Positions 1,128 through 61,187 of a stretch of DNA of 64,000 bases are shown here, in pieces (position 1 is the stretch's first letter; every line of letters starts with the position of its first letter). A program made the translations under genes and the position numbers. Origin of the DNA: Kineosporia babensis. Lineage in GTDB: Bacteria > Actinomycetota > Actinomycetes > Actinomycetales > Kineosporiaceae. The stretch lies in contig NZ_JAJOMB010000025.1 in the NCBI RefSeq assembly GCF_021129305.1, positions 62,001 to 126,000 on the forward strand, in the 5' to 3' direction. The notes beneath the pieces are model-generated. The model was not told where the DNA came from and searched no databases. It was given only the letters and a program-made list of their open reading frames with translations.

Positions 1128-1141
1128 TGATAACAGGCCTT
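1128..1141 (-). repeat. Dispersed 14-bp motif, copy 1
   Basis: On the minus strand this reads AAGGCCTGTTATCA, matching AARGCCTGTTATCR. It lies directly upstream of the recombinase-like gene and shares 17 bases with copy 2: GATAACAGGC, then C or T, then TTGAGC, read on the plus strand. Confidence 0.8.
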
Positions 1142-1431
1142 GAGCTCAATCTATTGAATTCAGACTTCCTTTCTTGCTCTATAGGCCACGGGCCTGTCCG
1201 AGCTTTGTCCAACTCAGGGGAGCGGGTTGCCTGACCTGGGTGTTCAGCTCGATGGCGTTCCCTTCCGTGGGTGCTGCTGCATGAATGGTTCCGGTGTTGC
1301 TGCGCGTCAATGCTGCCCCCGGCGTACGCCCTGCTGTGAAAGTGTTGCCTGCTGAAGGTAGGCTCTCGGTCTCGCACGAGTCGGCTGGTTCGAGACCCTG
1401 TCGCTGAATTGTCCCGAGAGCCAGCTTGTTT
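1142..1431. other. Non-coding spacer with nested hairpin
   Basis: No convincing gene is present; the reading frames here are shadows. Bases are less GC-biased than the neighbours, especially 1142-1190. A nested foldback lies at 1361-1422: outer arms GGCTCTCGG (1361-1369) and CCGAGAGCC (1414-1422), and inner arms GGTCTC (1368-1373) and GAGACC (1392-1397). The structure ends 9 bases before motif copy 2. Confidence 0.5.
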
Positions 1432-1445
1432 CGATAACAGGCTTT
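1432..1445 (-). repeat. Dispersed 14-bp motif, copy 2
   Basis: Minus-strand reading AAAGCCTGTTATCG. It lies 36 bases past the stop of the leftward Nudix gene and about 300 bases from copy 1, in the same orientation. On its other side is an AT-rich run (ACATTTTTCTCC), resembling the tract beside copies 4 and 5. Confidence 0.8.
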
Positions 1446-1481
1446 GAGCGAACATTTTTCTCCTGCCCTTCAGCACAACCA

Positions 1482-2060
1482 TCACGGACGTAGAGCCAGG
1501 ACATCGAGGGCGCGGCCCAGATGTGGATCGAAACTGTGCGGATCGGCGGTCCTGATCTCGGTTTCTGGCCACCAGCGGACCTGGACGAATTCGCGTTCGT
1601 CGGGCTGCAGGTGCTGGCCTTCCTGGCCACGCAGGGCGAACCAGAGGCTGACATCGGTGTGCCGGCGTTCGGGTGCGTCCTTGGTCTCGGTCACTGTGAC
1701 CAGGAACGGCTTGTCTCCCAGAACGGGATCCGGCTCGGCCGAAACGCCCAGTTCCTCGACGATCTCGCGGCGGACCGTGTCGTAGGGGTGCTCGTCGGGT
1801 TCGACGTGCCCGCCGGTCGGTAGCCAGAGCCCGGCCAGGCGGTGATCACACAGGAGCACGCTGCCGGCTGACCGGTCGACGAGCAGGAAGTAGGCGACCA
1901 GGTGCGGGGATGGGGTGCGGGGTTTGGCGCGGCGGAAGATGTCGGGCGTTGAGGCGAGCCAGGCCAATGCGGTGGCTCGGTGGGCGCGGCCGAGTTCGTC
2001 GAGCGGGGCCAAGGCTGCGACGAGGCTGATGATGGCGGAGTGCACGGCGGTCCGAGGCAT
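1482..2060 (-). CDS. Nudix hydrolase
   Basis: A 192-residue protein with a complete Nudix box starting GHVEPDEHPYDTVRRE and ending IVEELGV, fitting GX5EX7REUXEEXGU. Such enzymes use Mg2+ to cleave nucleoside diphosphates linked to another group; the substrate is not predictable here. The N-terminal ~60 residues are helical and precede the fold. ATG at 2060 is chosen because it is followed by coding-like sequence and faces the divergent APH gene; a longer open frame upstream overlaps that gene and is a shadow. The 57-bp gap to the divergent gene must hold both promoters. Confidence 0.85.
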   Translation of the reverse strand: MPRTAVHSAIISLVAALAPLDELGRAHRATALAWLASTPDIFRRAKPRTPSPHLVAYFLLVDRSAGSVLLCDHRLAGLWLPTGGHVEPDEHPYDTVRREIVEELGVSAEPDPVLGDKPFLVTVTETKDAPERRHTDVSLWFALRGQEGQHLQPDEREFVQVRWWPETEIRTADPHSFDPHLGRALDVLALRP

Positions 2061-2117
2061 GGGGAAAGCGTGCCAGGGGCCACCGACAGTCTTGCGAAAA
2101 CGCCCTATCCTCAACGG

Positions 2118-2981
2118 GTGACGAGGGGATTTGAGCAGCTCAGTGAGCGGCAGCAGGTGTTGCTGGGGGAGCGGTGGGCCGGTGCCGAAGTGGTGCAGGA
2201 TCACAGTTGGGGGCAGGTCGACACGACGGTTCTGGAGGTGCTGCACGCCGGCGAGCGGCTGGTGGTGAAGGCGGCTGCCAGGGCGGCGGGTCATCATTTG
2301 CTGCGCGAGATCCACGCGCATCGGCACTGGGTGGGGGTGTGGCGGGATCGAGGCAGGGCGCCGGAGTTGCTCTGGGCCGATGCGGATGCCCGGGTGCTGG
2401 TGACGCGTTACCTGCCGGGGCATCTGGTGCAGGGGACGGACAGCGAGTTTCAGCCCGAGACGCACCGGCAGGCGGGGGAGTTGCTGGCTGCCTTCCATGC
2501 CCAGTTCAGCGTTCCGGAACGGGATTTTGAGGTTCGGGCGCAGGCCAAGACGTTGTGGTGGCTGGATCAGCCGCACCGCATCGACCCAACGGTGGTGCAG
2601 CGTTTACGTGAGGTGGTCGCCTCCTGGCCCACACCGTCCGTTGCTTGTGTACCGACGCACGGGGACTGGCAGCCGCGCAACTGGCTGGTGCACGACGGTG
2701 AGGTGCGCGTGATCGATTTCGGGCGGGCCGAGCTGCGGCCGGCGTTCACCGATGTGACGCGGTTGATGGTGCAGCAGTGGCGCGGGCGTCCGGATCTGGA
2801 GGCGGCGTTCTACGAGGGGTACGGCGCCCCGCCTGCTGATCCGGATGTCCTGCAGCGTGATTTGGTGCGTGGGGCGATCTCGACGGCGGTGTGGGCGTAT
2901 CGGGTGGGGGACGAGGGGTTCGAGGCTCAGGGGCTGCGGATGATTGCGGATGTTCTGGCGGTGGAGGAACGAATGTCGTAG
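2118..2981 (+). CDS. Aminoglycoside phosphotransferase (APH) family kinase
   Basis: A 287-residue kinase-like protein. It has the Brenner motif HGDWQPRN (HxDxxxxN: catalytic Asp and Mg-binding Asn) followed by VRVIDFGRAE, the DFG-equivalent metal site, and an N-terminal lobe with VVKAAARAAG as a likely ATP lysine segment. The family phosphorylates aminoglycosides, but also choline, homoserine and other small alcohols, so resistance is only a possibility. GTG at 2118 is preferred over an upstream in-frame ATG that would overlap the divergent Nudix gene. No obvious Shine-Dalgarno is seen, so the mRNA may be leaderless. The ANT-like gene lies nearby on the opposite strand. Confidence 0.8.
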   Translation: MTRGFEQLSERQQVLLGERWAGAEVVQDHSWGQVDTTVLEVLHAGERLVVKAAARAAGHHLLREIHAHRHWVGVWRDRGRAPELLWADADARVLVTRYLPGHLVQGTDSEFQPETHRQAGELLAAFHAQFSVPERDFEVRAQAKTLWWLDQPHRIDPTVVQRLREVVASWPTPSVACVPTHGDWQPRNWLVHDGEVRVIDFGRAELRPAFTDVTRLMVQQWRGRPDLEAAFYEGYGAPPADPDVLQRDLVRGAISTAVWAYRVGDEGFEAQGLRMIADVLAVEERMS

Positions 2982-3095
2982 GGCGCGTCTGGTCTTCGAG
3001 ATGCGGTTGGTTATCTCTGGAGGAGGGCCCCCAGCACTCGAAATGTCATAATGTTCATTATCGGCGTTCGGCTGAGGGTGCTGAGAAGGGGTTCG

Positions 3096-3758
3096 TCAGT
3101 GGGCCCATGGGTGGTCCGGGTTGATGCGGTGCATGGTGTCGCGGAGCCAGGTGCGGGCCCGCTCGTCGAGCAGCGGCAGCGTGGTGTGGGCGTCCTGGCG
3201 GTCTTTCTCGCGGGCCTGGGCGGCCTTGAACATGAGGGTGACTTCGGGTTTTGCGTAGCGCAGGCCGTCGGGTGCGATCCAGGTGACGTCTTCGAGGTTC
3301 TCGGTGTGGGCCGGGTTGCGTTTGTTGGTCCAGCGGCGAGTGCCGGCGTCGGGTGTGAAGGGTACGTCGAGGATCCAGGGTGATTGGGCGTTGCGGCGGA
3401 TCCAGAGTTGGCTGTCGGGTCTGACCTGGGTGAATCGCTGGTCGAAGGGTCGTAGCCAGCCTTCGTCGGCGTTCCAGGCGGTCCAGCGGTCGCCGAGGAA
3501 GTCCCGGAAGGCTGGGATGTCGCTGGCCAGGATGGAGATGTCCATGTCGTCGTGGGGTCGGCTGATGCCGGTGAACGCTTGGATGCTCCAGCCGCCGACG
3601 ATCCACCAGGGCTGGTCGAATCCGTGCATGAACGCGCTGATCGTGCCTGGGTTGAGGGGTTCCCAGGTGCCGTACCAGCGCTGGAAATCGTCGGGTGGCA
3701 GCGGTTGGGCGTCGGTGGGTTGGGGTGCTGGGGGTCCGGTGGGGGTGTTGGTGGGCAT
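3096..3758 (-). CDS. ANT(2'')-like nucleotidyltransferase
   Basis: A 220-residue protein with WWIVGGWSIQAF and then SRPHDDMDIS. This matches the GGWAID...HDDID core of aminoglycoside-2''-adenylyltransferases and related polymerase-beta-fold nucleotidyltransferases; the two acidic residues of HDDMD are the metal ligands. The family transfers AMP to aminoglycosides, although many chromosomal members have unknown substrates. It converges on the APH gene with a ~115-bp gap. The first ~25 residues are Pro/Thr-rich and may be disordered or reflect an over-long start. Confidence 0.75.
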   Translation of the reverse strand: MPTNTPTGPPAPQPTDAQPLPPDDFQRWYGTWEPLNPGTISAFMHGFDQPWWIVGGWSIQAFTGISRPHDDMDISILASDIPAFRDFLGDRWTAWNADEGWLRPFDQRFTQVRPDSQLWIRRNAQSPWILDVPFTPDAGTRRWTNKRNPAHTENLEDVTWIAPDGLRYAKPEVTLMFKAAQAREKDRQDAHTTLPLLDERARTWLRDTMHRINPDHPWAH

Positions 3759-4346
3759 AGCTGGGGAATGTACTCGCAGGGCTACTCCCCCAGGCAGTTT
3801 CGGTCACACTGCGTGGCGGGAGGTGTGTCGAAAAGCGTTGCGGCACAACATGTTTGGCCTAGATAACTGTGATTATCTGTTCGGGCCGGTGGAGCAGAGC
3901 GGCGTCGCGTTCTCCGCTGGATCTGGCATGTGCCCGGCGGGCCTGGGGCGAAGGACCCTGCGCTGATCACCAAAGCCCGGTGCCGCTGGGTGGCCTTCGT
4001 GTAGCGCCGGCCGCCCGCACCGCTGATCTACGTGGTGGCGGCAGCAGAGTCGCAGGGGTGACCAGCTCTCCCCCTCGTGATCCTCTGGCCATCGAGCAGC
4101 CCGGCGAAGAGCCCTCGGCTACCTCCTCACCATCGCAACCGCTCCCCCGCCGGCTGCGATGGTGAGGCGCGGGTGGCGAGCGCTGGGAGGGCGCTGCTCC
4201 CCTGCCCGTCCGTGGGTTCGCCTTGAGGTAGATCGGTTCGTGCCTCCTGGTGTTGATCTGGATCGGGGTCCGGGTGAAAAGCCCTGTGCTGCAGTCCTGG
4301 ACTACGTGTAGGGCGGCTGTGTGGGGGTATCTGCAAGAATGGACAG
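3759..4346. other. Intergenic region with two inverted repeats
   Basis: About 590 bases between divergent genes. I see no convincing gene; a 98-codon plus-strand frame starting at 3869 has no family features. AGATAA (3861-3866) and TTATCT (3873-3878) form a short palindrome around CTGTGA, a possible operator for the leftward gene. CTCACCATCGCA (4126-4137) pairs perfectly with TGCGATGGTGAG (4155-4166). Confidence 0.45.
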
Positions 4347-5306
4347 GTGTTCGATTCCCAGCTGGAGCGCGTCGAGGCCGTACCGCAGACCCCTGATGCT
4401 TTCGAGGTCGGGAACGGTGATGCGTGGCCGCATTTTGTGCGGGCGTGGCTGATTGCTCAGCGGGCCCAGAACACTGTGCGTACCTACACCACGGCTGAGG
4501 TGCAGTGGCGTCAGTTCTGCGCCGGCCGGTCCCTGCATCCGCTGAATGCCCGTCGCGGTGACGTGGATGACTGGCGGGGGCAGATCAGTGCTACCGGTGG
4601 CTTTCACGGCCGTCCGGCCTCGGCCAACACTGTGCGCCTGAAGCTTGCGGCTGTGTCCTCGCTGTATGCCTACCTGGTCGGTGAGGACATCCTGGCTGCC
4701 TCGCCTGCCGCCCATATCAAGCGGCCTCGCGGTGGGGACTTCTCGGCCACTGCCGCGCTGGACACTGTTCAGGCGGCCCGTTTCCTGAGTGCGGCCGAGG
4801 GTCAGGGCGAGACCACGTACGTGGCCATGCGGGTCCTGCTGGGGCGTGGGCTGCGGGCCACTGAGCTGGTCAGTCTTGATATTGAGGACGTCCGTCAGCA
4901 CTTTGGTCACGTGACCGTGACGGTCACGCACAAGGGCGGTAAGCGCCAGGAGTTGCCGCTCTCCCCCGGCACCGGGCATCTGCTTTCGCAGTACATCGGC
5001 GAGCGCGTGTCCGGGCCGCTGTTCGTCAATCCTCAGGGTGGGCGCATGACGTACTGGGAGTTGTACAACCTGACGGTGCGGGTTTCGCGGCGGGCGCGGG
5101 TGGGTCTGGATGTGACCCCGCATGTGTTGCGTGCCTCGCATGCCACGATCTATCTGGACCAGGCCGGCGCGCAGATCGATCGGCTGCAGGACGGCTTGGG
5201 TCACGCCAGCCTGAACAACACGAAGGCCTATGACCGGGGCGCGGGATCGCTGGGGCGTCTGGCGAGTGTGGCGACGGCGGTTGAGGATGCTTTCCTGCCC
5301 GGTTAG
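4347..5306 (+). CDS. Tyrosine recombinase, XerC/integrase type
   Basis: A 319-residue recombinase with all catalytic residues: R170 in GRGLRATEL, K196 in THKGGKR, H259 and R262 in TPHVLRASH, H286 in GLGHAS, and the nucleophile Y295 in TKAYDRG. The N-terminal half (about 25-125) is a SAM-like core-binding domain. Size and layout fit XerC/XerD-like enzymes that cut and rejoin DNA at short inverted sites. It could be an orphan Xer paralogue or the integrase of a small element; no flanking direct repeat or tRNA was recognised. The stop lies 3 bases from the end of the convergent gene. Confidence 0.9.
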   Translation: MFDSQLERVEAVPQTPDAFEVGNGDAWPHFVRAWLIAQRAQNTVRTYTTAEVQWRQFCAGRSLHPLNARRGDVDDWRGQISATGGFHGRPASANTVRLKLAAVSSLYAYLVGEDILAASPAAHIKRPRGGDFSATAALDTVQAARFLSAAEGQGETTYVAMRVLLGRGLRATELVSLDIEDVRQHFGHVTVTVTHKGGKRQELPLSPGTGHLLSQYIGERVSGPLFVNPQGGRMTYWELYNLTVRVSRRARVGLDVTPHVLRASHATIYLDQAGAQIDRLQDGLGHASLNNTKAYDRGAGSLGRLASVATAVEDAFLPG

Positions 5307-5309
5307 CCG

Positions 5310-5834
5310 TTAGAGGGTGCGTTCGCTGATGGCGGGCAGGGCGTAGGTGGCGACGGCGTTGGCGACTTCCTCGGCTACGGGGTCGGTGGGGCGGCGGGCG
5401 GAGATGTACCACCATTTGTCTGCCACGCCCATGAGCGGGCCCAGGCGTTGGGTCCAGGGGCCGTCCGGGCCGTAGTGGGTGCTGGTGTCGGGTTCGGCGG
5501 GCCAGGGGTTGCCCATGAAGTCCTTGCCGTTCTCGCGGAAGGCTTGCCACTGGGGGTGGGAGGTGACGAGGACGTTGATGGTGAACTGGAAGCTGGCGGA
5601 GTTGTTGCCCCAGTACTCCTGGGGTGCCAGGAGGGCGTAGTAGCCGGGGATCTCGAGGCGGAAGTCGCTGGCGCCGGTTCCGGGGGCGTAGTTCTCCTGC
5701 CCGATGGTCTGGAAGGCGGGGCGCTCGTGCCGGGTGTCGGTCTCGAGGGCGGGGGCGATGAACCCGAGGGCTTGCAGGCGGGGTCTGAGTTCGTCCCTGA
5801 GCATGCGCCGGTAGGCGTCGTGCGCTGTCTCCAC
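5310..5834 (-). CDS. DUF4304-like protein
   Basis: A 174-residue soluble protein. The opening (RRMLRDELRPRLQALGF) and later SFQFTINVLVTSHP resemble DUF4304, whose members start with a helix ending in LGF and carry a FxINLG strand. The function of that family is unknown. It converges on the recombinase with 3 bases between stops. The assignment rests on two short motifs. Confidence 0.6.
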   Translation of the reverse strand: METAHDAYRRMLRDELRPRLQALGFIAPALETDTRHERPAFQTIGQENYAPGTGASDFRLEIPGYYALLAPQEYWGNNSASFQFTINVLVTSHPQWQAFRENGKDFMGNPWPAEPDTSTHYGPDGPWTQRLGPLMGVADKWWYISARRPTDPVAEEVANAVATYALPAISERTL

Positions 5835-5876
5835 GGGGCCATAGTTGCAGGTGGTGCGCGGGCGGTGATCAGCCGG

Positions 5877-6212
5877 TCATCGGTTGGGGGTTGCGGCGGT
5901 GTCCGGGCCGGGTGGGAGCAGGCGGTAGCCGGTGCCGCGGACGGTCTCGATCCGGGGTCCGCCGGTGGCGTGGAGTTTGGTGCGCAGGGTGGCGATGTGG
6001 ACGTCCAGGGTGCGGGAGGCGCCGCCGCGGGTGACGTCCCACAGGGCCTGCAGCAGGTCGTGGCGGGCGACGACCTGGCCCCGGCCGTGCAGCAGTGCGG
6101 TCAGCAGGTGCTGTTCCTTGGCGGTCAGGGCGGTGGTGCCGGCCGGTCCGTGCAGCAGGCCGGTGGCGGGGTCAAGGCGCATCCGGTCCTCGTCCGCGTC
6201 GTGCGCGCTCAT
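5877..6212 (-). CDS. Orphan OmpR-type winged-helix DNA-binding protein
   Basis: A 111-residue protein consisting only of the C-terminal output domain of OmpR/PhoB response regulators: LTAKEQHLLTALL (wing and helix 1), VVARHDLLQALW, SRTLDVHIATLRTKL (recognition helix), then IETVRGTGYRL, the typical end. No receiver domain precedes it; the longer frame upstream is a shadow of the transporter. It is divergent from the KgtP-like transporter across 222 bases and is the obvious candidate regulator of it. Without an Asp acceptor it cannot be phosphorylated in the usual way. Confidence 0.8.
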   Translation of the reverse strand: MSAHDADEDRMRLDPATGLLHGPAGTTALTAKEQHLLTALLHGRGQVVARHDLLQALWDVTRGGASRTLDVHIATLRTKLHATGGPRIETVRGTGYRLLPPGPDTAATPNR

Positions 6213-6434
6213 GGAGGTTCGGTCTTCTCCCTGGTCAGCCGGATGGGGTGGGGTCAACGTTGTCGGCTGGAAGGGGCGGGTGGGGCGCCTTCGACGCAAA
6301 AAGTCTGTAAAGGTTCCGGCGCGAGGCTTTTCCGGTGAGGGCTGTCCTACGTAGCGTGAGCGGTTGGCACCGGCGCCGGGCGTCCGCCGTGTGCCCGGTT
6401 GGTGGCCGGGACGCCGGGATCGGGGTGAACCGCC

Positions 6435-7766: not shown

Positions 7767-7770
7767 ACGC

Positions 7771-7815
7771 GGCTGTGGGGCCGATCCGTCCCTGACACGG
7801 ATCAGCCCCACAGCC
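7771..7815 (+). terminator. Hairpin terminator after MFS gene
   Basis: GGCTGTGGGGC-GATCCGT pairs with ACGGATC-GCCCCACAGCC around a short loop, with one mismatch in the stem. It begins 4 bases after the transporter stop. Confidence 0.8.
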
Positions 7816-7908
7816 TGCACAAACTTCTACCGCCCGGGAGGGGGTGGGCGCTGGCGAATCGGTGGAAAAGTACCCGTCCGCGGCAGTTTGACCCTCCGAA
7901 GAGGTGTC

Positions 7909-8550: not shown

Positions 8551-8567
8551 ACGCCCAGGATAGTGGA

Positions 8568-8619: not shown

Positions 8620-8661
8620 CTCCGCGGCTGATGGCCGTCCCCGACCCATGGGAGTACCACG

Positions 8662-9294: not shown

Positions 9295-9315
9295 ACCTGC
9301 CGGACCCGAATTGCT

Positions 9316-25818: not shown

Positions 25819-26415
25819 TCAGGCCGGGGTGCGGGCGTCCTGCCAGGTGTGCTCGGAGCTGAGGTTCTGCTCGTGCAGCCAGGAGGCCAGATGCTCGACG
25901 TGGTGCTCGCCGAAGCGCTCGGGGTCACGAGTGGTGCGCAACTGGTGGGGCAGGCCACTGCTGCGCAGCAGGTGCAGGCTGCGCAGGGCGGGTGCTGCGC
26001 TGCGGGGTGCGGCGGTGATGGTGTCGTACTCCTCTGGGTGGGCTTTGATGTCGAAGCCCACCCAGTCGATCAGGCTCTCGGCCAGCAGTTGCCCGAACCG
26101 GCGAGGGTACGCGCCGCCCGTGTGGAGCCCGACTGCGAAACCCAGCTCCCGCACGTCTTTCATTGCCGCAGCCAGCCCCCTCTGGAGGAGGGGTTCCCCG
26201 CCGGAGAACACCACCCCGTCCACCAGTTTCTGTCGTTGACGCAAGTGCGCGCGCACCTCGGGCCAGGTGACGGCGGCGGGGGTTCGTGGGTTCAGGAGGG
26301 TGGGGTTGTGGCAGTAGCCGCAGCGCCACGGGCAGCCCTGGCAGAAGAGCGTGGTGACCAGCCGGCCGGGCCAGTCACAGGTGGACAGCCGTGACCATCC
26401 CCCGATCCGGATCAC
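25819..26415 (-). CDS. nrdG: Anaerobic ribonucleotide reductase activating protein
   Basis: A 198-residue radical SAM enzyme. FCQGCPWRCGYCHNP contains the CX3CX2C cluster ligands; VVFSGGEPLLQ binds SAM and IDWVGFDIKAHP is the later strand. NrdG transfers an electron to SAM to form the glycyl radical on NrdD. GTG at 26415 overlaps the nrdD stop by 4 bases, so translation is coupled; longer upstream frames overlap nrdD and are shadows. It is slightly longer than E. coli NrdG and resembles the NrdG2/PflA-like form. Confidence 0.9.
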   Translation of the reverse strand: MIRIGGWSRLSTCDWPGRLVTTLFCQGCPWRCGYCHNPTLLNPRTPAAVTWPEVRAHLRQRQKLVDGVVFSGGEPLLQRGLAAAMKDVRELGFAVGLHTGGAYPRRFGQLLAESLIDWVGFDIKAHPEEYDTITAAPRSAAPALRSLHLLRSSGLPHQLRTTRDPERFGEHHVEHLASWLHEQNLSSEHTWQDARTPA

Positions 26416-28229
26416 GCCCCTACCCCTGACCCTGTCGTCCCGGTCAGGGTGGGGATCTTGTTCTCCTGGAAGTGGACGCGCTCGCTGTGCTCGCCCTGCT
26501 TGCCGATGTTGAACGAGGTGACCGGACGGTGGTAGCCCATCACCCGCGTCCACACTTCGCAGTCACCGCCGCACGCCGGGCAGGTGGTGTGTTCCCCGGC
26601 GAGGTAGCCGTGGCCGGGGCAGATCGAGAACGTGGGGGTCACGGTCAGGTACGGCAGGGAGAAGGTCTCCAGGCTGCGGCGTACGAGGTTCTTGCAGGCC
26701 TGGGCGGTGGTGATCTGCTCGGACATGTACAGGTGCAGGACGGTGCCGCCGGTGTAGCGGGTCTGCAGCTCGTCCTGGCGGTGCAGGGCCTCGAAGGCGT
26801 CGTCGGTGAAGCCGGCGGGCAGCTGGGTGGAGTTCGTGTAGTACGGGTTGGTGTCCGTGCCGGCCTGCAGGATGGACGGGAAGCGGCGGCGGTCCTCCTT
26901 GGCGAAACGGTACGTGGTTCCCTCGGCGGGGGTGGCCTCCAGGTTGTACAGGTGGCCGGTGCGTTCCTGGAAGTCGATCATGCGCTCGCGGACGTGATCG
27001 AGGAGCCGTAGGGCGAGTGCGTGCCCGGCGGGGTGGGTGATGTCGTGCTCATCGCCGGTGAAGTTACGGATCATTTCGTTGACGCCGTTGACCCCGATGG
27101 TGGAGAAGTGGTTGTCCAGGGTGGCCAGGTAGCGCCGGGTGTAGGGGAACAGGCCGGCGTCGATGAGGTCCTGCACGGTGCGGCGTTTGATCTCCAGGCT
27201 CTCGCAGGCCACCTCGAGCAGGTCGTCGAGGGCGGACAGCAGGGCCGGTTCGTCGCCGGGATGGCGGTGGCCCAGGCGGGCGCAGTTGATGGTGACCACG
27301 CCGAGGGAACCGGTTTGTTCTGCGCTGCCGAACAGTCCGTTGCCGCGTTTGAGCAGTTCGGTGAGGTCGAGTTGCAGGCGGCAGCACATCGAGCGGATCA
27401 TGCCGGGCTCGAGGTCGGAGTTGACGAAGTTCTGGAAGTACGGGAGCCCGTACCTGGCGGTCATCGCGAACAGGCGCCCGGCATTGGGACTGTCCCAGTC
27501 GAAGTCGTCGGTGATGTTGTAGGTGGGGATCGGGAAGGTGAACACCCGTCCGCTCGCGTCGCCGGTGGCCATCACCTCGATGAAGGCCTGGTTGACGAGG
27601 TCCATCTCGGTCTGCAGGTCCCCGTACGTGAAGGTGCAGGGGTGCCCGCCGATGCGGGGTGTGTCGTCCTTCAGGTCGGGTGGGCAGACCCAGTCGAAGG
27701 TCAGGTTGGTGAACGGGGTCTGGGTGCCCCAGCGGGAGGGCACGTTCAGGTTGTGGACCATTTCCTGGATGCACTGGCGCACCTGCGGGTAGGTCATGGC
27801 GTCCTGGCGGACGAACGGTGCCAGGTAGGTGTCGAAGGAGCTGAAGGCCTGGGCGCCGGCCCATTCGTTCTGCAGGGTGCCCAGGAAGTTCACGATCTGC
27901 CCGGTGGCGGCGGAGAAGTGCCGGGGCGGGCCGGAGTCGATCTGCCCGGCCACCCCGGCGAACCCTTCCTCCAGGAGGGTGCGCAGGGACCAGCCGGCGC
28001 AGTAGCCGGCCAGCATGTCGAGGTCGTGGATGTGCAGGTCACCGTCGCGGTGAGCGTGGGCGACGGCCGGCGGGTACACCTCCTGAAGCCAGTAGTTCGC
28101 GATGACCTTGCCGGCGGTGTTCAGGATCAGCCCGCCCAGTGAGTAGCCCTGGTTGGCGTTCGCGTTGACCCGCCAGTCGCTGCGGTTCAGGTACTCGCTC
28201 ACGGTGTCCACGGCATGGATGTGTGTCAT
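26412..28229 (-). CDS. nrdD: Anaerobic (class III) ribonucleoside-triphosphate reductase
   Basis: A 605-residue glycyl radical enzyme reducing ribonucleotides in the absence of oxygen. WSLRTLLEEGF, LGTLQNEWAGAQAFSSFD, NVPSRWGTQTPFTNLTFDW, SMCCRLQLDL and GSLGVVTINCARLG are family blocks. The C-terminus has the structural zinc site CPACGGDCEVWTR and the glycyl-radical loop RVMGYHRPV, followed by FNIGKQGEHSERVHF. The N-terminal ATP-cone of longer NrdD proteins is absent, so allosteric activity control by dATP is probably lost. It is preceded by a cobalamin riboswitch and coupled to nrdG. Confidence 0.92.
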   Translation of the reverse strand: MTHIHAVDTVSEYLNRSDWRVNANANQGYSLGGLILNTAGKVIANYWLQEVYPPAVAHAHRDGDLHIHDLDMLAGYCAGWSLRTLLEEGFAGVAGQIDSGPPRHFSAATGQIVNFLGTLQNEWAGAQAFSSFDTYLAPFVRQDAMTYPQVRQCIQEMVHNLNVPSRWGTQTPFTNLTFDWVCPPDLKDDTPRIGGHPCTFTYGDLQTEMDLVNQAFIEVMATGDASGRVFTFPIPTYNITDDFDWDSPNAGRLFAMTARYGLPYFQNFVNSDLEPGMIRSMCCRLQLDLTELLKRGNGLFGSAEQTGSLGVVTINCARLGHRHPGDEPALLSALDDLLEVACESLEIKRRTVQDLIDAGLFPYTRRYLATLDNHFSTIGVNGVNEMIRNFTGDEHDITHPAGHALALRLLDHVRERMIDFQERTGHLYNLEATPAEGTTYRFAKEDRRRFPSILQAGTDTNPYYTNSTQLPAGFTDDAFEALHRQDELQTRYTGGTVLHLYMSEQITTAQACKNLVRRSLETFSLPYLTVTPTFSICPGHGYLAGEHTTCPACGGDCEVWTRVMGYHRPVTSFNIGKQGEHSERVHFQENKIPTLTGTTGSGVGA

Positions 28230-28254
28230 GTCGGCCCTCCCACGGGGCGTCCGT

Positions 28255-28400
28255 ACAGCACGTGCGGCAGGGGTCGGACTCGCGCTCGTGCTGGTGCGTG
28301 ATGTGGCACGGCGCTCACCGTTGCGGGGCAGTTCCGGGCTCGCACCGGATTCCCTGGCCGGTCGCGAGGCACGACACGGCCCGCCAACGCTACATCTGGG
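28255..28400 (-). ncRNA. Cobalamin riboswitch
   Basis: Minus-strand sequence upstream of nrdD has the conserved core: GGGAATCCGGTGCGAGCCCG, then GAACTGCCCCGCAACGG (28319-28354), the GGGAAnnnGGTGnnAnnCC...CCCGCAACnGT pattern of adenosylcobalamin riboswitches. AGTCCGACCCCTGCC (28266-28280) is the 3' conserved box. The outer limits are approximate. It should repress nrdDG when cobalamin is plentiful, presumably because a B12-dependent reductase can then be used. Confidence 0.9.
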
Positions 28401-37460: not shown

Positions 37461-37474
37461 AAGGCCTGTTATCA
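37461..37474 (+). repeat. Dispersed 14-bp motif, copy 3
   Basis: AAGGCCTGTTATCA, 40 bases past the stop of the SDR gene. CTAAGGC (37459-37465) pairs with GCCTTAG (37512-37518), which includes the SDR stop, and GGACG/CGTCC (37481-37495) pairs inside. About 60 bases could fold, with the motif at one end. Confidence 0.8.
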
Positions 37475-38586: not shown

Positions 38587-38600
38587 AAGGCCTGTTATCA
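38587..38600 (+). repeat. Dispersed 14-bp motif, copy 4
   Basis: AAGGCCTGTTATCA, identical to copy 3 and in the same orientation. It lies 94 bases upstream of the SDR start and 17 bases past the stop of the quinone oxidoreductase. CTTGA...TCAAG (38558-38578) and an AGAAAAT run adjoin it. TTGAGAATAT is shared with the flank of copy 3. Confidence 0.8.
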
Positions 38601-48959: not shown

Positions 48960-50048
48960 CTACCTGGCCGTCTCTTCCCGACGCTGATACCGGAATCCCG
49001 CCAGCAACAAGGCACCCGCGACCAGGCCGAACAAGCCGTACCCCAGGAGCGAGACGCCGTCGGTGAAACCGGTGAAGTCACCGACGACGAACGAGAACGG
49101 CGCCCCCACAGTGATGGCGGCGGCCGCCAGCGCGAGCCGGTGCTGCTCACTCCAGCCTGGTTTTCGGCTCAGCCAGACGCCGACGAGGAAAGACCCAACG
49201 GCCAGGACGATCCCCGTTGTGGCGCCCAGCCAGGTCGGGGGCAGCACGTTGAAGAGCAGCAGAACCAGGGACGCGGTCAGCCAGGTGAGAACGGGCGAGG
49301 GCAGTTTGGTCGGTCGATCAGCACTGCCGGTGGTGTGGTCTGCCTGGCGTGACCCAGGCGACTGGCCCGTTTCAACGCCTCGCTCGGCTTTGCCGAGTTC
49401 ACCCCCGCCTTCTTCGCCGGCAGTTCCAAATTTTCTGTCAGAAAATCGCGAAAGCCTGTTATCACCGGGATAGGCAAGGGCCACGAAGGCGAGAGCAAGC
49501 ATCACCGTGAAACCCTGCTGCGGCAGCGTCGGCCAGTAGTCCTCGGTGGTGCGCGAGTCCGCCCCGATCAGCGCGAACCCACCGCCCAGCCAGGCCACCG
49601 TGCTCCAGTACCCGACCTGCCCCATCCACGGCGCATGGTCTCCCCCGCGCTCGGACAGGGCCTCCACGATCGCGATCGGCAGCGCGATGCTGTAGATGGC
49701 GTGGGTGACGATGAAGGCCATCCCCCAGTAGATGTTCCAGTCGATCCCCGGCACCACCGGCCCGCTCAGGTCGTACCCCGCGTAGTCCGGATCGAACATC
49801 GACGCATCGACCGCCCCGGCCAGGACCGCGCCGAAAGCCGCACCCAGCAACAGGATGCTCGGCCACCCCCGCCCGGACCCGCGGACGAACTCGCGCACCA
49901 GCAGCGCGGCCGCCCCGTACAGCGGCATCAGCCACGGAAGATTGACCAGGTCGTGCAGGGTGATACTGCCCAGCAGGTACTCGCCGCAGAACGGCGCCAG
50001 CAGAGCGAGACCGAAAACCGGCACAGCCCTGAACTTTTGCTCTCCCAT
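48960..50048 (-). CDS. Multi-pass membrane protein with hydrophilic insert
   Basis: A 362-residue protein with about ten membrane segments and no family I recognise. Hydrophobic halves (5-205 and 255-355) are separated by a strongly hydrophilic, Gly/Glu/Arg-rich stretch (GDNRLSRFSDRKFGTAGEEG through DHTTGSADRPTKLPSP, about 200-255). Motif copy 5 (49451-49464) and a 17-base palindrome lie at its start, suggesting the stretch is an inserted sequence kept in frame. ATG at 50048 is chosen because it begins the hydrophobic pattern. Confidence 0.65.
   Translation of the reverse strand: MGEQKFRAVPVFGLALLAPFCGEYLLGSITLHDLVNLPWLMPLYGAAALLVREFVRGSGRGWPSILLLGAAFGAVLAGAVDASMFDPDYAGYDLSGPVVPGIDWNIYWGMAFIVTHAIYSIALPIAIVEALSERGGDHAPWMGQVGYWSTVAWLGGGFALIGADSRTTEDYWPTLPQQGFTVMLALAFVALAYPGDNRLSRFSDRKFGTAGEEGGGELGKAERGVETGQSPGSRQADHTTGSADRPTKLPSPVLTWLTASLVLLLFNVLPPTWLGATTGIVLAVGSFLVGVWLSRKPGWSEQHRLALAAAAITVGAPFSFVVGDFTGFTDGVSLLGYGLFGLVAGALLLAGFRYQRREETAR
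49430..49464 (+). repeat. Dispersed 14-bp motif, copy 5, with palindrome
   Basis: AAAGCCTGTTATCA at 49451-49464, preceded by the palindrome ATTTTCTGTCAGAAAAT (49430-49446). Both lie inside the membrane-protein gene and are far richer in A and T than the flanking codons. Confidence 0.8.
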
Positions 50049-55500: not shown

Positions 55501-58500
55501 CCCCCGACAGACGGTGCCGCGACGTAGGTGAACGTGGCCGGGGCCGAGACCCCGCCCGCCGTGGTGTTCACCAGGACGCTCACGGGCCCGGCCGCGTGCG
55601 GCGGAGTCCGAACGGTGATCGAGGTCGGGCTACCCGTCGTGTTCAGGGCGGTCCCCGCCACGCCGTCGAACGTCACGCTGGTCACGTCGTAGAACTGCCC
55701 ACCGGTGATGGTGACCAGGTCGCCGCCGGCGGTCTTCCCCGTGGTGGGAGCCAACGCGCTGATGGTCGGTGTTCCCACGTACCGGAAGTCGTCTCGCGTA
55801 CCGGTCGTGGAGGAGACTCCCCCGTCGGTCGTCACCGAGACGTTGACGACGCCCGCAGCACCAGCCGGAGACGTCACCCGCACCTCAGTCGGGCTGATGA
55901 ACTGGAAGCCGGTGGTGGCGGTGGTAGCACCGAACTTGACGACAGAGCCCGAGGTGAACCCGGTACCGCTGATCGTCACGGCGGTGCCCCCGGCGCTGGA
56001 ACCCGAGTCGGGTGACACACCGGTCACCTCGGGCAGGTCCAGGTAGGTGAACTCAGCAGAGGACGATGCGGCTGAGTTCGCGTACACGCCCACCACGGTC
56101 ACGGGGACGGTTCCGGCGCTCCCGGCCGGGGACGTCACCGTCATGGTGGTCGCGTTGACCACCTGCGGGTTGGCGCCCAGCACGTTGCCGAAGCGAACGC
56201 CTGTTGCATTAGTGAAATTCGTCCCGGTGATGGTGACGGGCGTACCCCCGGCGACCGGCCCGTCATCGGGAGAGACATTGCTGACGGTCGGCGCTCCGAC
56301 GTACGTGTACTGGTTGGCCGCCGCGGCCGCAGATGTGCCCCCTACCAGGGTGGTCACCCGCACGTTCACCACGCCGCTGCCCGCCGGAACGGTGGCGGTG
56401 ATCAGGGTGTCGCTCTGCCGCGTGAACGAAGTAGCTGCTGTGGCACCGAAATTGACGTTGAGGACGCCGATGAATCCGGTACCGGTAATGCTCACGGTCT
56501 GCCCGCCGGCCGCGTCACCGGCGGTCGGCGAGAGACCGGAGACCACCGGCGTGCCCACGTAGGTGAAGTCGTCCGCCGCTGTGTTCGGTGACGTACCCCC
56601 GGCTGTGGTGACCCGGACATCCACCGTGCCCAGTCCGGCCGGGGACGAGGTGACCGTGATGCTGGTCGGGCTGTTGTACGTCACGTCGGCCTGGCTGACC
56701 TGGGTAAGTCCGAAGGCCACTGTGCTGGTGGGGGTGAAACCCGCGCCGGTGATAGCCACCGTGGTCCCGCCAGTAGGCAGACCCGCGGCCGGGCTGATCC
56801 CCGTAACGGCCGGAGCCCCCAGGTAGGTGAAGACCGTTCCACTAGCGCTGGTTCCGCCGAGCGCCGTGGTCACGGTGACCGCCGCTGCCCCGGCACTGTT
56901 GGCCGGAGTGATGGCGGTGATCGTCGTGTCATTGACCACTACGTAACTCGTAGCGTTGGTGCCGCCGAACTTGACCGCAGACGCCCCGGTCGCGGTATTG
57001 AAGCCGCTGCCGGTGATCGTCACCGCGGTACCGCCCCCGAGCGGGCCGGTATTCGGCGTCACAGACGAGACCACCGGCTGCCCGATGAAGGTGAAGTCGT
57101 TGATCACCGGGACCGGAGTCGACGTTCCTCCCGGGGCGACCACGGTGACCGCCACGGTCCCCGGGGTACCGGTCGGCGCGAGCACGGTGAGGCTGCCGTC
57201 GTTGCTCACCGCCAGCGAAGTCCCGGACACCGAACCGAATTTCACGTCGGTCGCTCCGGTGAAACCGGTTCCGGTGAGAGTGACCGTGCGAGTGCCTCCC
57301 GTTGTCGCCAGCTGGTTCGGGTTCACGGTCAGGACGGTGGGAGCAGCCGCGTAGGTGTAGTTCTCGCTGTTGGAGATGTTCACGCCACCGGCCGAGACCG
57401 TCACCGGGACAGTGCCGATCACGCCAGGCGGCGCATTCAGCGTGATCTGGGTGTCCGAGTTCTTGGTGAACGAGGTGGTGCTGGTCAGCCCGAAGCTCAC
57501 CGAGACGGCCTGGTTGAAGCCGGTGCCGGTCAGGACGACCTGATTGCCCCCGCCGGCCGGACCGCGGTTCGGGGACACAGCGGTCAGGGTCGGCGCTCCC
57601 AGATAGGTGAACTTCGTCGCAGCTGTTACCGCGCTCGATCCGCCGTTCGCGGTGGTGACGACGACATTCACGTCACCGGTGTCATGCAGCGGCACCACGG
57701 GGATCGTGATCGTGGTATCGGTCAACTGCGAGAACACCGCCGGAGTACCACCGAACGAGACGCCGGTGGTCCCACTGAACCCGGTCCCGGTGATGGTCAC
57801 ACTCGTAGCCGACGCCGCTGACCCGCTGGTCGGACTCAGCGACGTGATGGCCGGAGCCGCGACATACGTGAAGTCGTTCAGCGTGCCTAGGGCAGAGCTG
57901 GTTCCACCGATACCCACAACCGTGACGTCGGCCGCGCCGACCGTGCCGGCCGGGGACCGCACGGTCAGGGTCGAGTCGGTACTGATCGCGATGTTCGTGC
58001 CGGGCACCCCGTCGAAGAGCACCTGGGTTGCACCGGTGAAGCCGCTACCCGCCACTGTCACCGTGGTTCCGCCCGCCACCGGCCCCGTGCTGGGTGTCAG
58101 CAAGGTGACCGTGGGGGCATCCACGTATTGGTAGGGCTGGGTGCCCGAGGTTCCGTAGGCCACGCTGTTGACGCTCACCAGACGGAGCTGGGCACCCACG
58201 ACAGCCGGTGCCGTCGCACGGATCTCGGTGTCCGAGACGACCGTGAACGTGGCCGGAGTGAGCAACCCGAAGTTGACGACGTTGACGTTCGTGAAGCCGG
58301 TACCGGTCAGCGTCACGGTGTTCCCGCCCGCAGTAGGACCGGAAGCCGGGGAGATCGACGTCAGAGTGGGCTGACCGACGTAGGTGTAGGTCGAGGCGGC
58401 CGTCGCCGCGCTGGTACCGCCGTTGGGCGTGGTGACGCTGACGTTGACCGGGCCGACCGCGTGCGCCGGCACTCCGACAATGGTGATCGTCGTGTCCGAG

Positions 58501-61187
58501 AGCACCAGCGGGATCACGCTGGTCTGGTCGAACTTGACCGACGTGGCGCCGGTGAAACCGGTACCGGTGATCGTTGCCCCCAGCCCGCCTGCGGCAGCGC
58601 CCTGGCTCGGGCTGATCCCGGTGATCACCGGGGCCGCGGTGTAGGTGAAGCGGTTGGCCCCGGAGGTGTTGACGGTCCCGCCCGGCGTCACCACGGTCAC
58701 TACCGCTGGCCCAGCCGAACCGGCCGGGGTAACCGCCGTAATGCTCGTGCCCGGCCCGTTAACCGTGTAGCTCGCGGCGTCGGTACCGCCGAAACGCACC
58801 GCGGTGGCGCCGGTCAGATTGGTACCGGTGATGACGACGCTCGTACCCCCGGCGACCGGCCCCGCTGTCGGCGAAATACCGCTGACGGTGGGTGCAGCCG
58901 CGTACACGAAGTCGTCAGCCGAAGTGTTGGCAGACGTACCGGCGGGCGTCACTACCCTCACGTCCGCTGTTCCCGCAGTACCAGCCGGGGAAGTGGCCGT
59001 GATCTGGGTCGGGCTCACCACCGTCACGAAGCTGGCGCTGTTCGCCCCGAAGTTCACGGCCGTGGCTCCGGTGAAACCGGTACCGGTGATGGTCACGCTC
59101 GTCCCACCGCCGAGCGGCCCAGTAGCCGGGCTGACGCTGGACACGGTCGGCAGAGCGATGTACGTGAACTGGTCGGCCGCGCTGGCAGGACTGGTGCCGG
59201 CGGGGTTGGTGACGGTGACGTCGATCGTTCCCGCGCTGCCGGCCGGTGAGACCGCGGTGATGCTCGTGGTCGAGTTGACCGTGTAGCTCGTCGCGTTAGT
59301 GCCGCCGAACTTCACCGCGGCAGCACCGGACAGCCCGGCGAAACCGGTACCAGTGATGGTGACCGACGTACCCCCGGACACCGACCCGCTGGACGGGTTG
59401 ACGTTCGTGACGGTGGGCGTACTGACGTAGGTGAAGTCGTCTGCTGTCGTGTTGGCCGACGTCCCACCGGGTGTGGTGACCGTGACGTCCACCGTGCCCG
59501 CGCTACCCGCAGGAGCAACCACCGTCAGGCTGGTCGCGGTATTCGCAGTGATAGAGGTGCCGTTGGTGTTGCCGAACTTGACCACCGACGCGTTGCTCAG
59601 CGCCGTACCGGTGATGGTGACGGTGGTACCCCCGCCGATCTGCCCTACCGAAGGGCTGATCGCCGTCACGGTCGGCACGGCCACGTAGGTGTACTGGTCC
59701 GCGCTGACCACATCGGACTGACCGCCGGTGGTCGTGACCCGAACGTCCACCTGGCCGGCCGTCTTCGCCGGGGCTACTGCGGTGATCTGGGTGGCGCTGT
59801 CGACGGAGAAACTGGTGGCCGCCGTGCCGCCGAACGTAACCGCGCTGGCGCCGCTCAGATTCGTCCCGGTGATCGTCACCGTCGTACCACCTGCGGTCGG
59901 CCCGCGGATCGGCGTGACCGCAGTGATCACCGGCTTGGGGACGTACTTGTAGTCGTCGCTGGCGGTGTTGGCCGAGGTGCCGGTCGGGTTGACCACCCGC
60001 ACGTCGACCGTGCCGGTGCCCGCCGGAGCGACCGCCGTGATCTTGTTCAGGGCGTCGATCGTGTAGCTGGTGGCCGGGGTCGAGCCGAAGTTGACCGCGG
60101 TGGTGCCGAGGAACCCGGAGCCGTTGATCGTGACGCTGGTCGCGCCCGCCTCAGACCCCTGAGTCGGCGAAATGCTGGTGATCGCGGGCGTGGGCGGGAC
60201 GCTCGTGCCGCACTCGCTGGTACCGATGTCCAGGTTGACCGCGGCCAGACCAGCCACGTTGATGACCACCCGGACCGCGATCACCTTCATCGAGTACTGC
60301 CCGGCACCCTGGTTGGCGGTGCTCTGGTAGTTGAGGATGATCGAGCCGGCCGTCACCGGAGCGCCGAGCACGTTGAGGGTGAGTGGGATGGTGTAGTTCG
60401 GCGTGATGGTGCCGCTGGGGATCGCTGCCCCCAGGTTCAGCCCACCGCCGAGCTGCAGACCGGTGACCGTGGACGTACCGGTGACACCGCTGCCGGTGGC
60501 CACACATTCCGAGTGCGTCGGGCCCAGCCTCACCAGGCCGCTCGCGACATTCAGGTTGGCCAGGTCGGCCGTGGCATTGGCCTTGTCATACAACGGATCG
60601 GCGGTGGCCGTGGTCTGGACCAGACCGGCCGAGGCCACACTGTTGACGGCCGCCCCCAGGCCGGTCAGGTCAGCCAGTTGAGCGCTCGGCGTGCCCGGGT
60701 ACTGCGACTGGGCCACGCTCGCGATGTTGACGGTCGCGGCAGCCAGCAATGTCACGCTGCCGTTCAGCACGTTGGCGTTGGAGATCACCGTGCTACTGCT
60801 GGGGAAGGCCTCACCGGGCTGCGCACCCAGCGGCACCACAGCACCGGCGATCAGCAGGCCGGCCAGCCCGCGCGCCGTAGCACCGCGGAAAACCCGCTTC
60901 AGGCAAGGAGTTCGCGTAGCGACCGGGACGATCAGCCCACCGCAGAGAGCGTCATGGACATTCGTGCTGCCCTCGGCAGCGAGGTAGCCACCTCTGGTGC
61001 GCCCCTCGTCCTGCATCTGCGCACCGGCCGGGACAGCAACTTGCTCGGCGGCCGACGGAAGGGGAGCGTCTGAGGCGCCCACACCGTCCTGTGATTTTCT
61101 CGAAAGCGACCCCCGCAAGCTCTTCCAAGCTGCGACCAACTTCGCCGAAGGCCTGTTATCGCCGAGCCCCTGACCCCACACGCGCAT
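52575..61187 (-). CDS. Giant IPT/TIG-repeat cell-wall protein with LAXTG anchor
   Basis: Up to 2870 residues. A hydrophobic signal-like segment (RGLAGLLIAGAVVPLGAQPGEA) lies about 105 residues in, then an N-terminal domain, then 27 consecutive IPT/TIG repeats of about 80-85 residues (unit pattern ISPxxGxxxGGTxVTITGTGFTG...VxFG). The tail has a Gly/Glu linker (GTGTGGEGGN repeats), then LAFTG, one membrane helix and RNRSRRR, a class E sortase LAXTG-type signal. It is probably wall-anchored and adhesive. ATG at 61187 has GGGGGAG 8 bases upstream, but the first ~105 codons look weakly coding; a CTG at 60902 just before the signal peptide is the alternative. Confidence 0.85.
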   Translation of the reverse strand: MRVWGQGLGDNRPSAKLVAAWKSLRGSLSRKSQDGVGASDAPLPSAAEQVAVPAGAQMQDEGRTRGGYLAAEGSTNVHDALCGGLIVPVATRTPCLKRVFRGATARGLAGLLIAGAVVPLGAQPGEAFPSSSTVISNANVLNGSVTLLAAATVNIASVAQSQYPGTPSAQLADLTGLGAAVNSVASAGLVQTTATADPLYDKANATADLANLNVASGLVRLGPTHSECVATGSGVTGTSTVTGLQLGGGLNLGAAIPSGTITPNYTIPLTLNVLGAPVTAGSIILNYQSTANQGAGQYSMKVIAVRVVINVAGLAAVNLDIGTSECGTSVPPTPAITSISPTQGSEAGATSVTINGSGFLGTTAVNFGSTPATSYTIDALNKITAVAPAGTGTVDVRVVNPTGTSANTASDDYKYVPKPVITAVTPIRGPTAGGTTVTITGTNLSGASAVTFGGTAATSFSVDSATQITAVAPAKTAGQVDVRVTTTGGQSDVVSADQYTYVAVPTVTAISPSVGQIGGGTTVTITGTALSNASVVKFGNTNGTSITANTATSLTVVAPAGSAGTVDVTVTTPGGTSANTTADDFTYVSTPTVTNVNPSSGSVSGGTSVTITGTGFAGLSGAAAVKFGGTNATSYTVNSTTSITAVSPAGSAGTIDVTVTNPAGTSPASAADQFTYIALPTVSSVSPATGPLGGGTSVTITGTGFTGATAVNFGANSASFVTVVSPTQITATSPAGTAGTADVRVVTPAGTSANTSADDFVYAAAPTVSGISPTAGPVAGGTSVVITGTNLTGATAVRFGGTDAASYTVNGPGTSITAVTPAGSAGPAVVTVVTPGGTVNTSGANRFTYTAAPVITGISPSQGAAAGGLGATITGTGFTGATSVKFDQTSVIPLVLSDTTITIVGVPAHAVGPVNVSVTTPNGGTSAATAASTYTYVGQPTLTSISPASGPTAGGNTVTLTGTGFTNVNVVNFGLLTPATFTVVSDTEIRATAPAVVGAQLRLVSVNSVAYGTSGTQPYQYVDAPTVTLLTPSTGPVAGGTTVTVAGSGFTGATQVLFDGVPGTNIAISTDSTLTVRSPAGTVGAADVTVVGIGGTSSALGTLNDFTYVAAPAITSLSPTSGSAASATSVTITGTGFSGTTGVSFGGTPAVFSQLTDTTITIPVVPLHDTGDVNVVVTTANGGSSAVTAATKFTYLGAPTLTAVSPNRGPAGGGNQVVLTGTGFNQAVSVSFGLTSTTSFTKNSDTQITLNAPPGVIGTVPVTVSAGGVNISNSENYTYAAAPTVLTVNPNQLATTGGTRTVTLTGTGFTGATDVKFGSVSGTSLAVSNDGSLTVLAPTGTPGTVAVTVVAPGGTSTPVPVINDFTFIGQPVVSSVTPNTGPLGGGTAVTITGSGFNTATGASAVKFGGTNATSYVVVNDTTITAITPANSAGAAAVTVTTALGGTSASGTVFTYLGAPAVTGISPAAGLPTGGTTVAITGAGFTPTSTVAFGLTQVSQADVTYNSPTSITVTSSPAGLGTVDVRVTTAGGTSPNTAADDFTYVGTPVVSGLSPTAGDAAGGQTVSITGTGFIGVLNVNFGATAATSFTRQSDTLITATVPAGSGVVNVRVTTLVGGTSAAAAANQYTYVGAPTVSNVSPDDGPVAGGTPVTITGTNFTNATGVRFGNVLGANPQVVNATTMTVTSPAGSAGTVPVTVVGVYANSAASSSAEFTYLDLPEVTGVSPDSGSSAGGTAVTISGTGFTSGSVVKFGATTATTGFQFISPTEVRVTSPAGAAGVVNVSVTTDGGVSSTTGTRDDFRYVGTPTISALAPTTGKTAGGDLVTITGGQFYDVTSVTFDGVAGTALNTTGSPTSITVRTPPHAAGPVSVLVNTTAGGVSAPATFTYVAAPSVGGVTPDDGVLGGGTSVTLTGSGFTGATQVNFGTVPATSFTVDSATQITATSPGMSMPGTFDVTVEGPYGTSATNTNAQFTYAGPPTVTGISPTRGALAGGTEVTITGTGFTAGTTVTFDGVAATVRFVSATQVVATTPAGNAGTVAMVLNNGSGSAPGVNFTYADLPAVTSVTPPQGRESGGTAVVVRGSGFSTATGVKFGPDTASFSIVSDTEITTTSPGGTGSVNVRVTNDIGTSQAVSANAFQYLPAPTVTGVTPASGPLSGTTTVTVNGTGFVAGATTVDFGSAPGTSVNVISPTRLTVISPSSATAQVVNVLVTTANGTSSGAGTANDFAYVAAPSVGGISPTAGPVAGGTVMTISGTGFADATTVRFGTVSVPFVVNTDGTITLTVPAGSAGLVDITVTGPGGTSAVTPNTRFRYQVVPAISGISPAQGAVTGGTAIVITGTGFTGATRVTVGGNDMASFTVDSDTSIRAVTPAGLIGDRPVRVTTPGGLSPASTFTYLAAPDVSAIDPSVGPIAGGTQVTITGTGLTGATSVSFGGTTATPTVNSDTSLTVTSPAHAAGTVDVTVTGPLGTSAATTSTRFRYVEPGAAPALSSVNPRRGPAAGGNTVTLNGLGFTGASAVTFGGQSALYTVVSDTEITVTVPENGDGTVTIRVTTANGTSTDELTYTYVPLSELPRVDSLSPNVGPVAGGTPLTITGARFDEQTTVTFDGIPGTNLTLGPDVGGSVLQQAVPSTIRAAYSETLTVTSPAHAAGLVTIAVTNAAGTTTFVQSFTFIPLPSAVAFPVEVPAGTTSVIAPRGPDYTDLVVDACSAPSRGTVVVGPKGQACLYTAPDEVGSDEFTMDITDVIGQSTTQTVEVTVVPGDGTGTGGEGGNNNGGDGDGTGTGGEGGNDTGGDNGTGTGGEGGNSSGEGDGSGSGSGTGSGGGNDGLAFTGTPYFLVPLIGLGFGLILVGSGLVSVDRLRNRSRRR
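61148..61161 (+). repeat. Dispersed 14-bp motif, copy 6
   Basis: AAGGCCTGTTATCG, 26 bases inside the longest frame of the giant gene. If that start is right, the motif is translated as part of the residues GDNRPS, like copy 5 (GDNRLS). Confidence 0.8.

Follow-up and report, generated by a model that had tools for sequence, protein, structure and literature searches.

What does a short motif do that recurs, with an invariant core, along one contig of an actinomycete genome? The motif lies in a 64,000-nucleotide stretch of the Kineosporia babensis assembly (contig NZ_JAJOMB010000025.1, positions 62,001 to 126,000, here called the window; C18:62001-126000 in our numbering of the 89 contigs of the source assembly). 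An earlier note on this DNA reported six copies of a 14-mer, AARGCCTGTTATCR, built on the 10 bp core GCCTGTTATC, described them as scattered, and offered three readings: a recombinase recognition site, the terminus of a small transposable unit, or a protein-binding element. On the sequence evidence described below, the motif and a protein encoded beside it are likely to form a new type of replication fork trap, an analogue of Tus-Ter and of RTP-ter (RTP, replication terminator protein) that would be built on a dead recombinase. It would probably be a stop system of a kind not yet described in Actinomycetes. The earlier interpretation thus survives in part: of its three readings, the protein-binding element is the one that fits.

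Abundance, orientation, and position of the motif

All six copies were recovered, each matching the 14-mer with 0 mismatches. In dinucleotide-preserving shuffles of the window the core is expected 0.03 times, and none of 100 shuffles gave six copies, in agreement with the earlier estimate that the core is far rarer by chance than observed. Across the 9.4 Mb genome we counted 12 copies of the 14-mer and 30 of the core, compared with about 4 cores expected when the shuffle mean of the window is scaled up; a count near expectation was an outcome that the earlier note had named as fatal to its proposal. The reversed-pattern control was 0. A chance origin of the motif was ruled out by the shuffles together with this control, which was 0 both in the source genome and in six Kineosporia genomes.

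A 61.2 kb segment of contig C18 holds seven of the 12 genomic 14-mers, one of which (C18:61947-61960, minus strand) lies outside the window, 41–54 bases to the left of its base 1. From left to right along C18, three minus-strand copies are followed by four plus-strand copies, with a dif-like site where the strand changes. Rather than being scattered, the copies therefore have strands ordered by replichore. The other contigs of the source genome with at least two sites were strand-concordant in seven of seven cases. We take the sequence at the strand switch to be a putative dif from its similarity to the actinobacterial dif consensus, which served as the search pattern. Two kinds of known site were set aside: a tRNA-linked att site was ruled out by the absence of any tRNA in the window, and the earlier statement that the motif is not attC holds, as attC follows the rule GTTRRRY, which GTTATCR does not fit.

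We compared 58 genomes, the source genome included, for the pattern AGCCTGTTATCR. Each of the six Kineosporia genomes has 9–19 occurrences, and each of the other 52 has 0 or 1. The cluster has the same layout in all six Kineosporia genomes, minus sites and then plus sites, and in each of them a dif-like site separates the innermost core site on the minus strand from that on the plus strand. The putative dif 28-mer is identical in five of the six and differs by one letter in the sixth. The interval between innermost sites that holds dif is 36 kb in the source genome.

The position of the sites on a whole chromosome was read from G004, a Kineosporia genome in a single contig of 8,065,021 bp, in which dnaA lies at 2,415,392 and dif at 6,420,962, 27 kb from the dnaA antipode. 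We found 36 matches to AGCCTGTTATCR with at most one mismatch, compared with 8 for the reversed pattern, and 29 of the 36 retain the GCCTGTTATC core (a count that leaves out cores in which both flanking letters differ). All 29 core sites are polar, on the minus strand along the arm from dnaA to dif and on the plus strand along the opposite arm, and of the seven matches with a change inside the core only four are polar. Seven of the 29 core sites lie within 50 kb of dif, where 0.36 would be expected; most of the 29 lie 90 kb to megabases away from it. An origin-proximal placement of the sites was rejected because the strand switch lies opposite dnaA.

Among 40 copies from terminus stretches, the letter after the core is A (78%) or G, the letter before it is A or G, and the flanks are A-rich. 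In two genomes, 38 distal copies keep the preference for A or G next to the core (97% and 95%) but lack the A-rich flanks. Because mild A-richness is all that the sites have in common beyond about 10 bp, the motif is an element of the size of a binding site and not a repeat unit. Some sites adjoin terminator-like hairpins, which are enriched around the 30 genome copies: GACAAA..TTTGTC or AACAAAG..CTTTGTT lies within 100 bp of 7 of the 30 source-genome sites (loci L009-L038), and neither was found in the remaining 78.7 kb of these loci.

The linked protein and its relatives

A gene at the left end of the window encodes the candidate for the protein that binds the sites (Table 1). All six Kineosporia genomes have an orthologue, and the other five are 80–89% identical to it; homologue loci are also present in records of K. 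rhizophila and K. mesophila. In all six genomes a core site ends 8–9 nt before the start codon of the orthologue, a second site lies 51–893 nt upstream, and another lies 49–169 nt after the stop codon.

A Pfam scan of the protein at E values up to 1 returned only Phage_integrase (0.011, below the cut-off) and FlgT_N (0.34), and it revealed no homology to Tus or to RTP. NCBIfam matches were also below the cut-off, and the best PHROG match was phrog_6657 (E 1.9e-6), a family of unknown function. Alignment with hhalign to five Xer-type proteins gave a probability of 95.7 and an E value of 1e-8 over 142 columns that cover the first catalytic Arg, and a profile search of the PDB gave weak matches to Cre (E 0.0014), XerA (0.0031), and XerD (0.0036). 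On the basis of this profile homology to Xer and Cre, we assign the protein by descent to the tyrosine recombinase superfamily. The first catalytic Arg is retained, and the usual His of the region that we take to resemble box II (FDHLRR) is replaced. In the six Kineosporia orthologues the chain ends 11–18 residues past the LRR of this region, and none of them has a Tyr in its last 50 residues, so that the Arg-His-Arg-Tyr set and C-terminal Tyr of an active tyrosine recombinase are not present. Because of the short end after the box II-like region, the replaced His, and the missing Tyr, the protein is predicted to bind DNA without recombining it. The suggestion of a recombinase recognition site is therefore unlikely to hold in the sense of an active site, although it anticipated the kind of protein with which the motif is associated, a degenerate Xer/Cre relative without the C-terminal tyrosine.

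We searched for homologues in 394 genomes of the class, in 13 of the Kineosporia family, and in 341 of another family, in which 8 of the 341 carry one (E up to 1e-14). Matches from the class search with E above 1e-9 were dropped, most of which have a longer, Tyr-bearing tail like true Xer and integrase proteins. The analysis of upstream DNA covered 18 homologues: those with E <1e-14 from the class and other-family searches, together with G008 (E 3e-8) and, from the Kineosporia-family search, G010, leaving out the source genome, G063, and one of the two G142 copies. In 13 of the 18, the word CTGTTAT lies at most 260 nt before the start codon, and the rest of those loci contain it once in 125,028 strand-bases. 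The start codons were picked by eye, and that of G525 was set one codon before a GTG, so this distance is approximate. A nineteenth homologue, G063, lies at a contig edge, where its upstream DNA is unreadable. No Tyr follows the profile match in 14 of the 19 distant homologues.

Several of these genomes have a small set of sites around dif. G355 contains exactly two GGCCTGTTAT sites; because the reversed control has one match, this count alone proves nothing. The two sites lie 26.9 kb apart and are divergent, the minus site beside the homologue gene and the plus site away from it, with dif between them. In G525, a congener of G355, the minus site beside the gene is at 2,046,791, dif is at 2,062,930, and plus sites are at 2,145,578 and 2,147,154. 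The sites of this candidate trap are the only occurrences of [GTC]CTGTTAT in 200 kb, and because dnaA lies at ~1 kb, its antipode falls at the trap midpoint, both at ~2.096 Mb. Two opposed groups of non-palindromic sites at a terminus opposite oriC, the arrangement that defines a fork trap, are thus found in G004 and likewise in G525. In G216, CCTGTTATC occurs five times, all five sites are polar, and dif lies between them. The homologues of G323 and G020 (loci L131 and L132) are short, 189–210 residues, and are preceded by TGTGCCAAGC, which in L132 also follows directly after the stop codon; they are perhaps a branch with a different site.

Related genes also occur on plasmids. With an E cut-off of 1e-3, the G355 protein matched 73 Streptomyces and Kitasatospora plasmid records, and in 35 of these the match spans at least 80% of the protein. 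On pFP1 and two related plasmids the homologue gene is part of a two-gene operon next to parA, and CTGTTAT was not found near the homologue gene in any of these three plasmids. All three encode a separate recombinase that has a C-terminal Tyr and is unmatched by the profiles built for the family of the linked protein. The gene for this recombinase is preceded (L255 9090-9190, L256 5178-5260, L257 16933-17015) by inverted AGATAAC/GTTATCT arms, which in pFP1 are AGATAACTGCTCTGTTATCT; a further CTGTTATCT adjoins the recombinase start. The arms are likely to be a recombination site that uses the same half-site word. Because they precede recombinase genes, words similar to CTGTTATC occur as likely recombinase half-sites, and it is plausible that the site-binding specificity of the linked protein derives from a recombinase. 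The related Streptomyces plasmid genes suggest a plasmid origin for the linked gene.

Table 1. Sites and candidate protein gene in the window (window coordinates)
Feature	Sequence	Position	Strand	Remarks
Candidate site-binding (terminator) protein		127..1119	-	330 aa; tyrosine-recombinase-like, degenerate, no C-terminal Tyr
Polar site	AAGGCCTGTTATCA	1128..1141	-	Left group; 8 nt before ATG of gene 127-1119
Polar site	AAAGCCTGTTATCG	1432..1445	-	Left group; innermost minus site; 1.6 kb from putative dif
Putative dif	AACGCCGATAATGAACATTATGACATTT	3041..3068	-	28-mer; 5 mismatches to actinobacterial consensus
Polar site	AAGGCCTGTTATCA	37461..37474	+	Right group; innermost plus site
Polar site	AAGGCCTGTTATCA	38587..38600	+	Right group
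Polar site	AAAGCCTGTTATCA	49451..49464	+	Right group; within gene model
Polar site	AAGGCCTGTTATCG	61148..61161	+	Right group; near 5' end of 2.8-kaa minus-strand gene

The gene models of the window come from a simple custom gene caller; by these models the sites at 1128, 1432, 37461, and 38587 are intergenic. Beside the putative dif, the minus-strand gene at 3096-3758 matches the Pfam family PF10706, which is aminoglycoside adenylyltransferase-like (E 2.8e-5). An Rfam element was rejected as an identity for the motif: at gathering thresholds the window yields only a cobalamin riboswitch (28249-28400), which is on the minus strand, directly upstream of the minus-strand gene at 26412-28229. The riboswitch stretch resembles plasmid anaerobic ribonucleotide reductase genes, and the riboswitch may place a B12-independent reductase under B12 control.

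A candidate fork trap and its alternatives

We propose that the sites (the GCCTGTTATC core in Kineosporia and CTGTTAT in the wider family) are polar terminator (Ter) sites. The 330-residue protein, having lost its C-terminal catalytic part, would grip each site asymmetrically, as if it were a single recombinase half-site. The bound complex would let a fork pass in the direction from origin to terminus and halt it in the opposite direction. Forks would thus pass the sites of their own arm and be held at the first site past dif, and the two forks would meet within the interval that holds dif. The site just ahead of the start codon would allow the gene to repress itself. That none of the 29 core sites of G004 is reversed would be expected because a site facing the wrong way would stop a fork early. 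We favor a fork trap because of the strict polarity of the sites, their rarity, their rising density toward dif, the dedicated gene with its own site, and the existence of a two-site form. At the level of sequence, the support consists of the over-representation of the motif, its polarity, its centring opposite dnaA, the dif-like site inside, the linked gene, the loss of Tyr, and the retention of the core near distant homologues. From these features we infer binding of the protein to the site, autoregulation, and polar arrest of forks.

A number of observations weigh against a fork trap. The protein and the sites are linked by position only, and an AlphaFold model made from three input sequences had a mean predicted local distance difference test score of 37.9 and gave no usable fold. 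G004 is the only complete Kineosporia chromosome that entered the analysis; across 26 sampled stretches its GC skew is weak and noisy, with the expected sign in many of them and not in all. Kineosporia sites distal to the terminus reach along the arms beyond the range that a trap would require, and their flanks are weaker. Among the distant homologues, 5 of the 18 have no CTGTTAT upstream (G010, G338, G142, G323, and G020), and one or two Tyr follow the profile match in 5 of the 19 (G214, G423, G596, G184, and G338). Counts of the short pattern can be close to those of the reversed control: G435 has 2 matches compared with 1, and G010 has four GGCCTGTTAT copies compared with 2, all four continuing as GGCCTGTTATTACC and one of them on the gene's own contig. 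The three sites of G644 and the two of G596 all lie to the left of dif, in stretches of 220 and 200 kb, and no right-hand partner sites were found in the 156 kb (G644) and 140 kb (G596) to the right of dif, so a trap in these genomes would be one-sided or would use other sites. A dif-like sequence was not found in the stretches examined of G423, G435, G214, G564, and G008. In G323, whose homologue is one of those without an upstream site, seven of eight sites would be polar only with a terminus close to the contig ends.

FtsK-orienting polar sequences (KOPS) are polar and centred on dif as well, and the sites might instead be segregation guides that steer FtsK or another translocase to dif, the linked protein having another role or acting as a modulator. 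Known KOPS are short, frequent octamers. Frequent polar octamers along both arms are not what we observed: the 29 core copies counted in the 8.07 Mb of G004 and the two exact GGCCTGTTAT sites in the whole of G355 seem too few to guide a translocase. KOPS direct FtsK toward dif (PMC3025954; PMC8347550). They need no dedicated gene, whereas the sites described here co-occur with a gene of DNA-binding type and precede its start codon. We consider such guidance unlikely. The same comparison extends to architecture-imparting sequences (AIMS), which, with KOPS, share with our sites the replichore polarity and a density that rises toward dif; both differ from sites that are far rarer and tied to a dedicated protein gene.

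The linked protein could also be a terminus organizer or an accessory of dimer resolution that marks the terminus or aids XerCD at dif, in the manner of MatP or of an inactive Xer partner, and leaves forks unblocked. Its relationship to Xer proteins fits such a role, as does the presence in G644 and G651 (loci L212 and L214) of a dif-like sequence at the stop codon of the homologue or within ~60 bp downstream. The letters TTATCG, found in the sites with G after the core, are moreover the start of the XerC-side arm of dif when inverted. A mark without direction, however, gives no purpose to an orientation that follows the replichore in 29 of 29 sites (the matS sites of E. coli are palindromic), nor does it suit sites that mostly lie so far from dif. 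An accessory role is accordingly improbable.

A mobile element, in which the sites would mark the ends of a transposable or recombining unit or the places where it inserts, was suggested by the earlier note and could draw on the resemblance of the linked protein to recombinases and on the different, Tyr-containing recombinase genes behind inverted arms in the three pFP1-type plasmids. Neither mark of a transposon end was found, however: no paired ends were seen around the sites, and the flanks beyond about 10 bp share nothing but their mild A-richness. The linked protein has no C-terminal Tyr, the orientation of the copies is set by replichore, and because the order around dif is conserved in six of six species, the sites as mobile targets are largely refuted; we regard this explanation as very improbable. 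Equally hard to credit is the regulon of a plasmid-derived initiator or regulator that autoregulates, its remaining sites being by-products, for which the 73 plasmid records and the gene beside parA speak, as it leaves unexplained why the chromosomal sites are polar and centred on dif in three genera from two families.

Comparison with known traps and implications

Like the type I Tus-Ter system of Enterobacterales, the proposed fork trap has non-palindromic sites that form two groups of opposite orientation across from oriC and enclose dif; one of the sites is close to the gene for the binding protein, and weaker sites lie farther out. A type I Tus trap consists of two Ter sites, one adjoining tus, and the innermost Ter sites of D. 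paradisiaca are 18 kb apart (PMC8707476). A narrow trap is a further common feature: the innermost sites are 36 kb apart in the window, and those of G355 are 26.9 kb apart. Unlike Tus, the linked protein has tyrosine recombinase ancestry and an Actinomycetes host, its site is different, and it has no Pfam match to Tus or terminator families. Compared with XerC, XerD, and XerA, its profile homology extends across the region with the first catalytic Arg, but its chain ends early, the box II His is replaced, and Tyr is missing, and it has many polar single sites where these proteins have one dif.

The RTP-ter system of Bacillus subtilis shares polar sites around the terminus, a dedicated protein, and a convergent logic. 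RTP is a small winged-helix dimer, and the protein described here is unrelated and larger; its site is one short asymmetric core. Each ter site of RTP, by contrast, has two half-sites and is bound by RTP dimers, as stated in the available text of a review (PMC10331603). In that text, Tus homologues are attributed to some groups of Proteobacteria, RTP to Bacillus, and Tus-like traps to plasmids, and no other chromosomal trap is named. Among the matches listed in a search of open-access titles and the beginnings of abstracts, with preprints and most subscription journals outside its range, we found neither a fork trap in Actinomycetes nor a terminator derived from a recombinase; in the same open-access literature we found no paper on the replication terminus of Kineosporia.

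We lean toward the view that this is a third, independently evolved bacterial fork trap, located in Actinomycetes, in which a recombinase without its catalytic tyrosine would form a polar barrier on a single XerC-like half-site (CTGTTAT). It would exist both in a minimal form with two sites and as an array of ~30 sites on chromosomes of 8–9 Mb, and its origin, as has been considered for Tus, may lie on plasmids. Discussion of why only a minority of bacteria retain fork traps has drawn on two unrelated cases, Tus and RTP. If the proposal is true, a third trap, from another phylum and another protein family, would make a strong case for convergence, and it would mean that fork traps can arise from any protein that grips DNA asymmetrically. 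Its patchy occurrence, in 8 of 341 genomes of one family, would permit a comparison of close relatives that have the trap with others that do not. The trap would also be a natural system for learning how the grip of a recombinase on DNA turns into a one-way roadblock.

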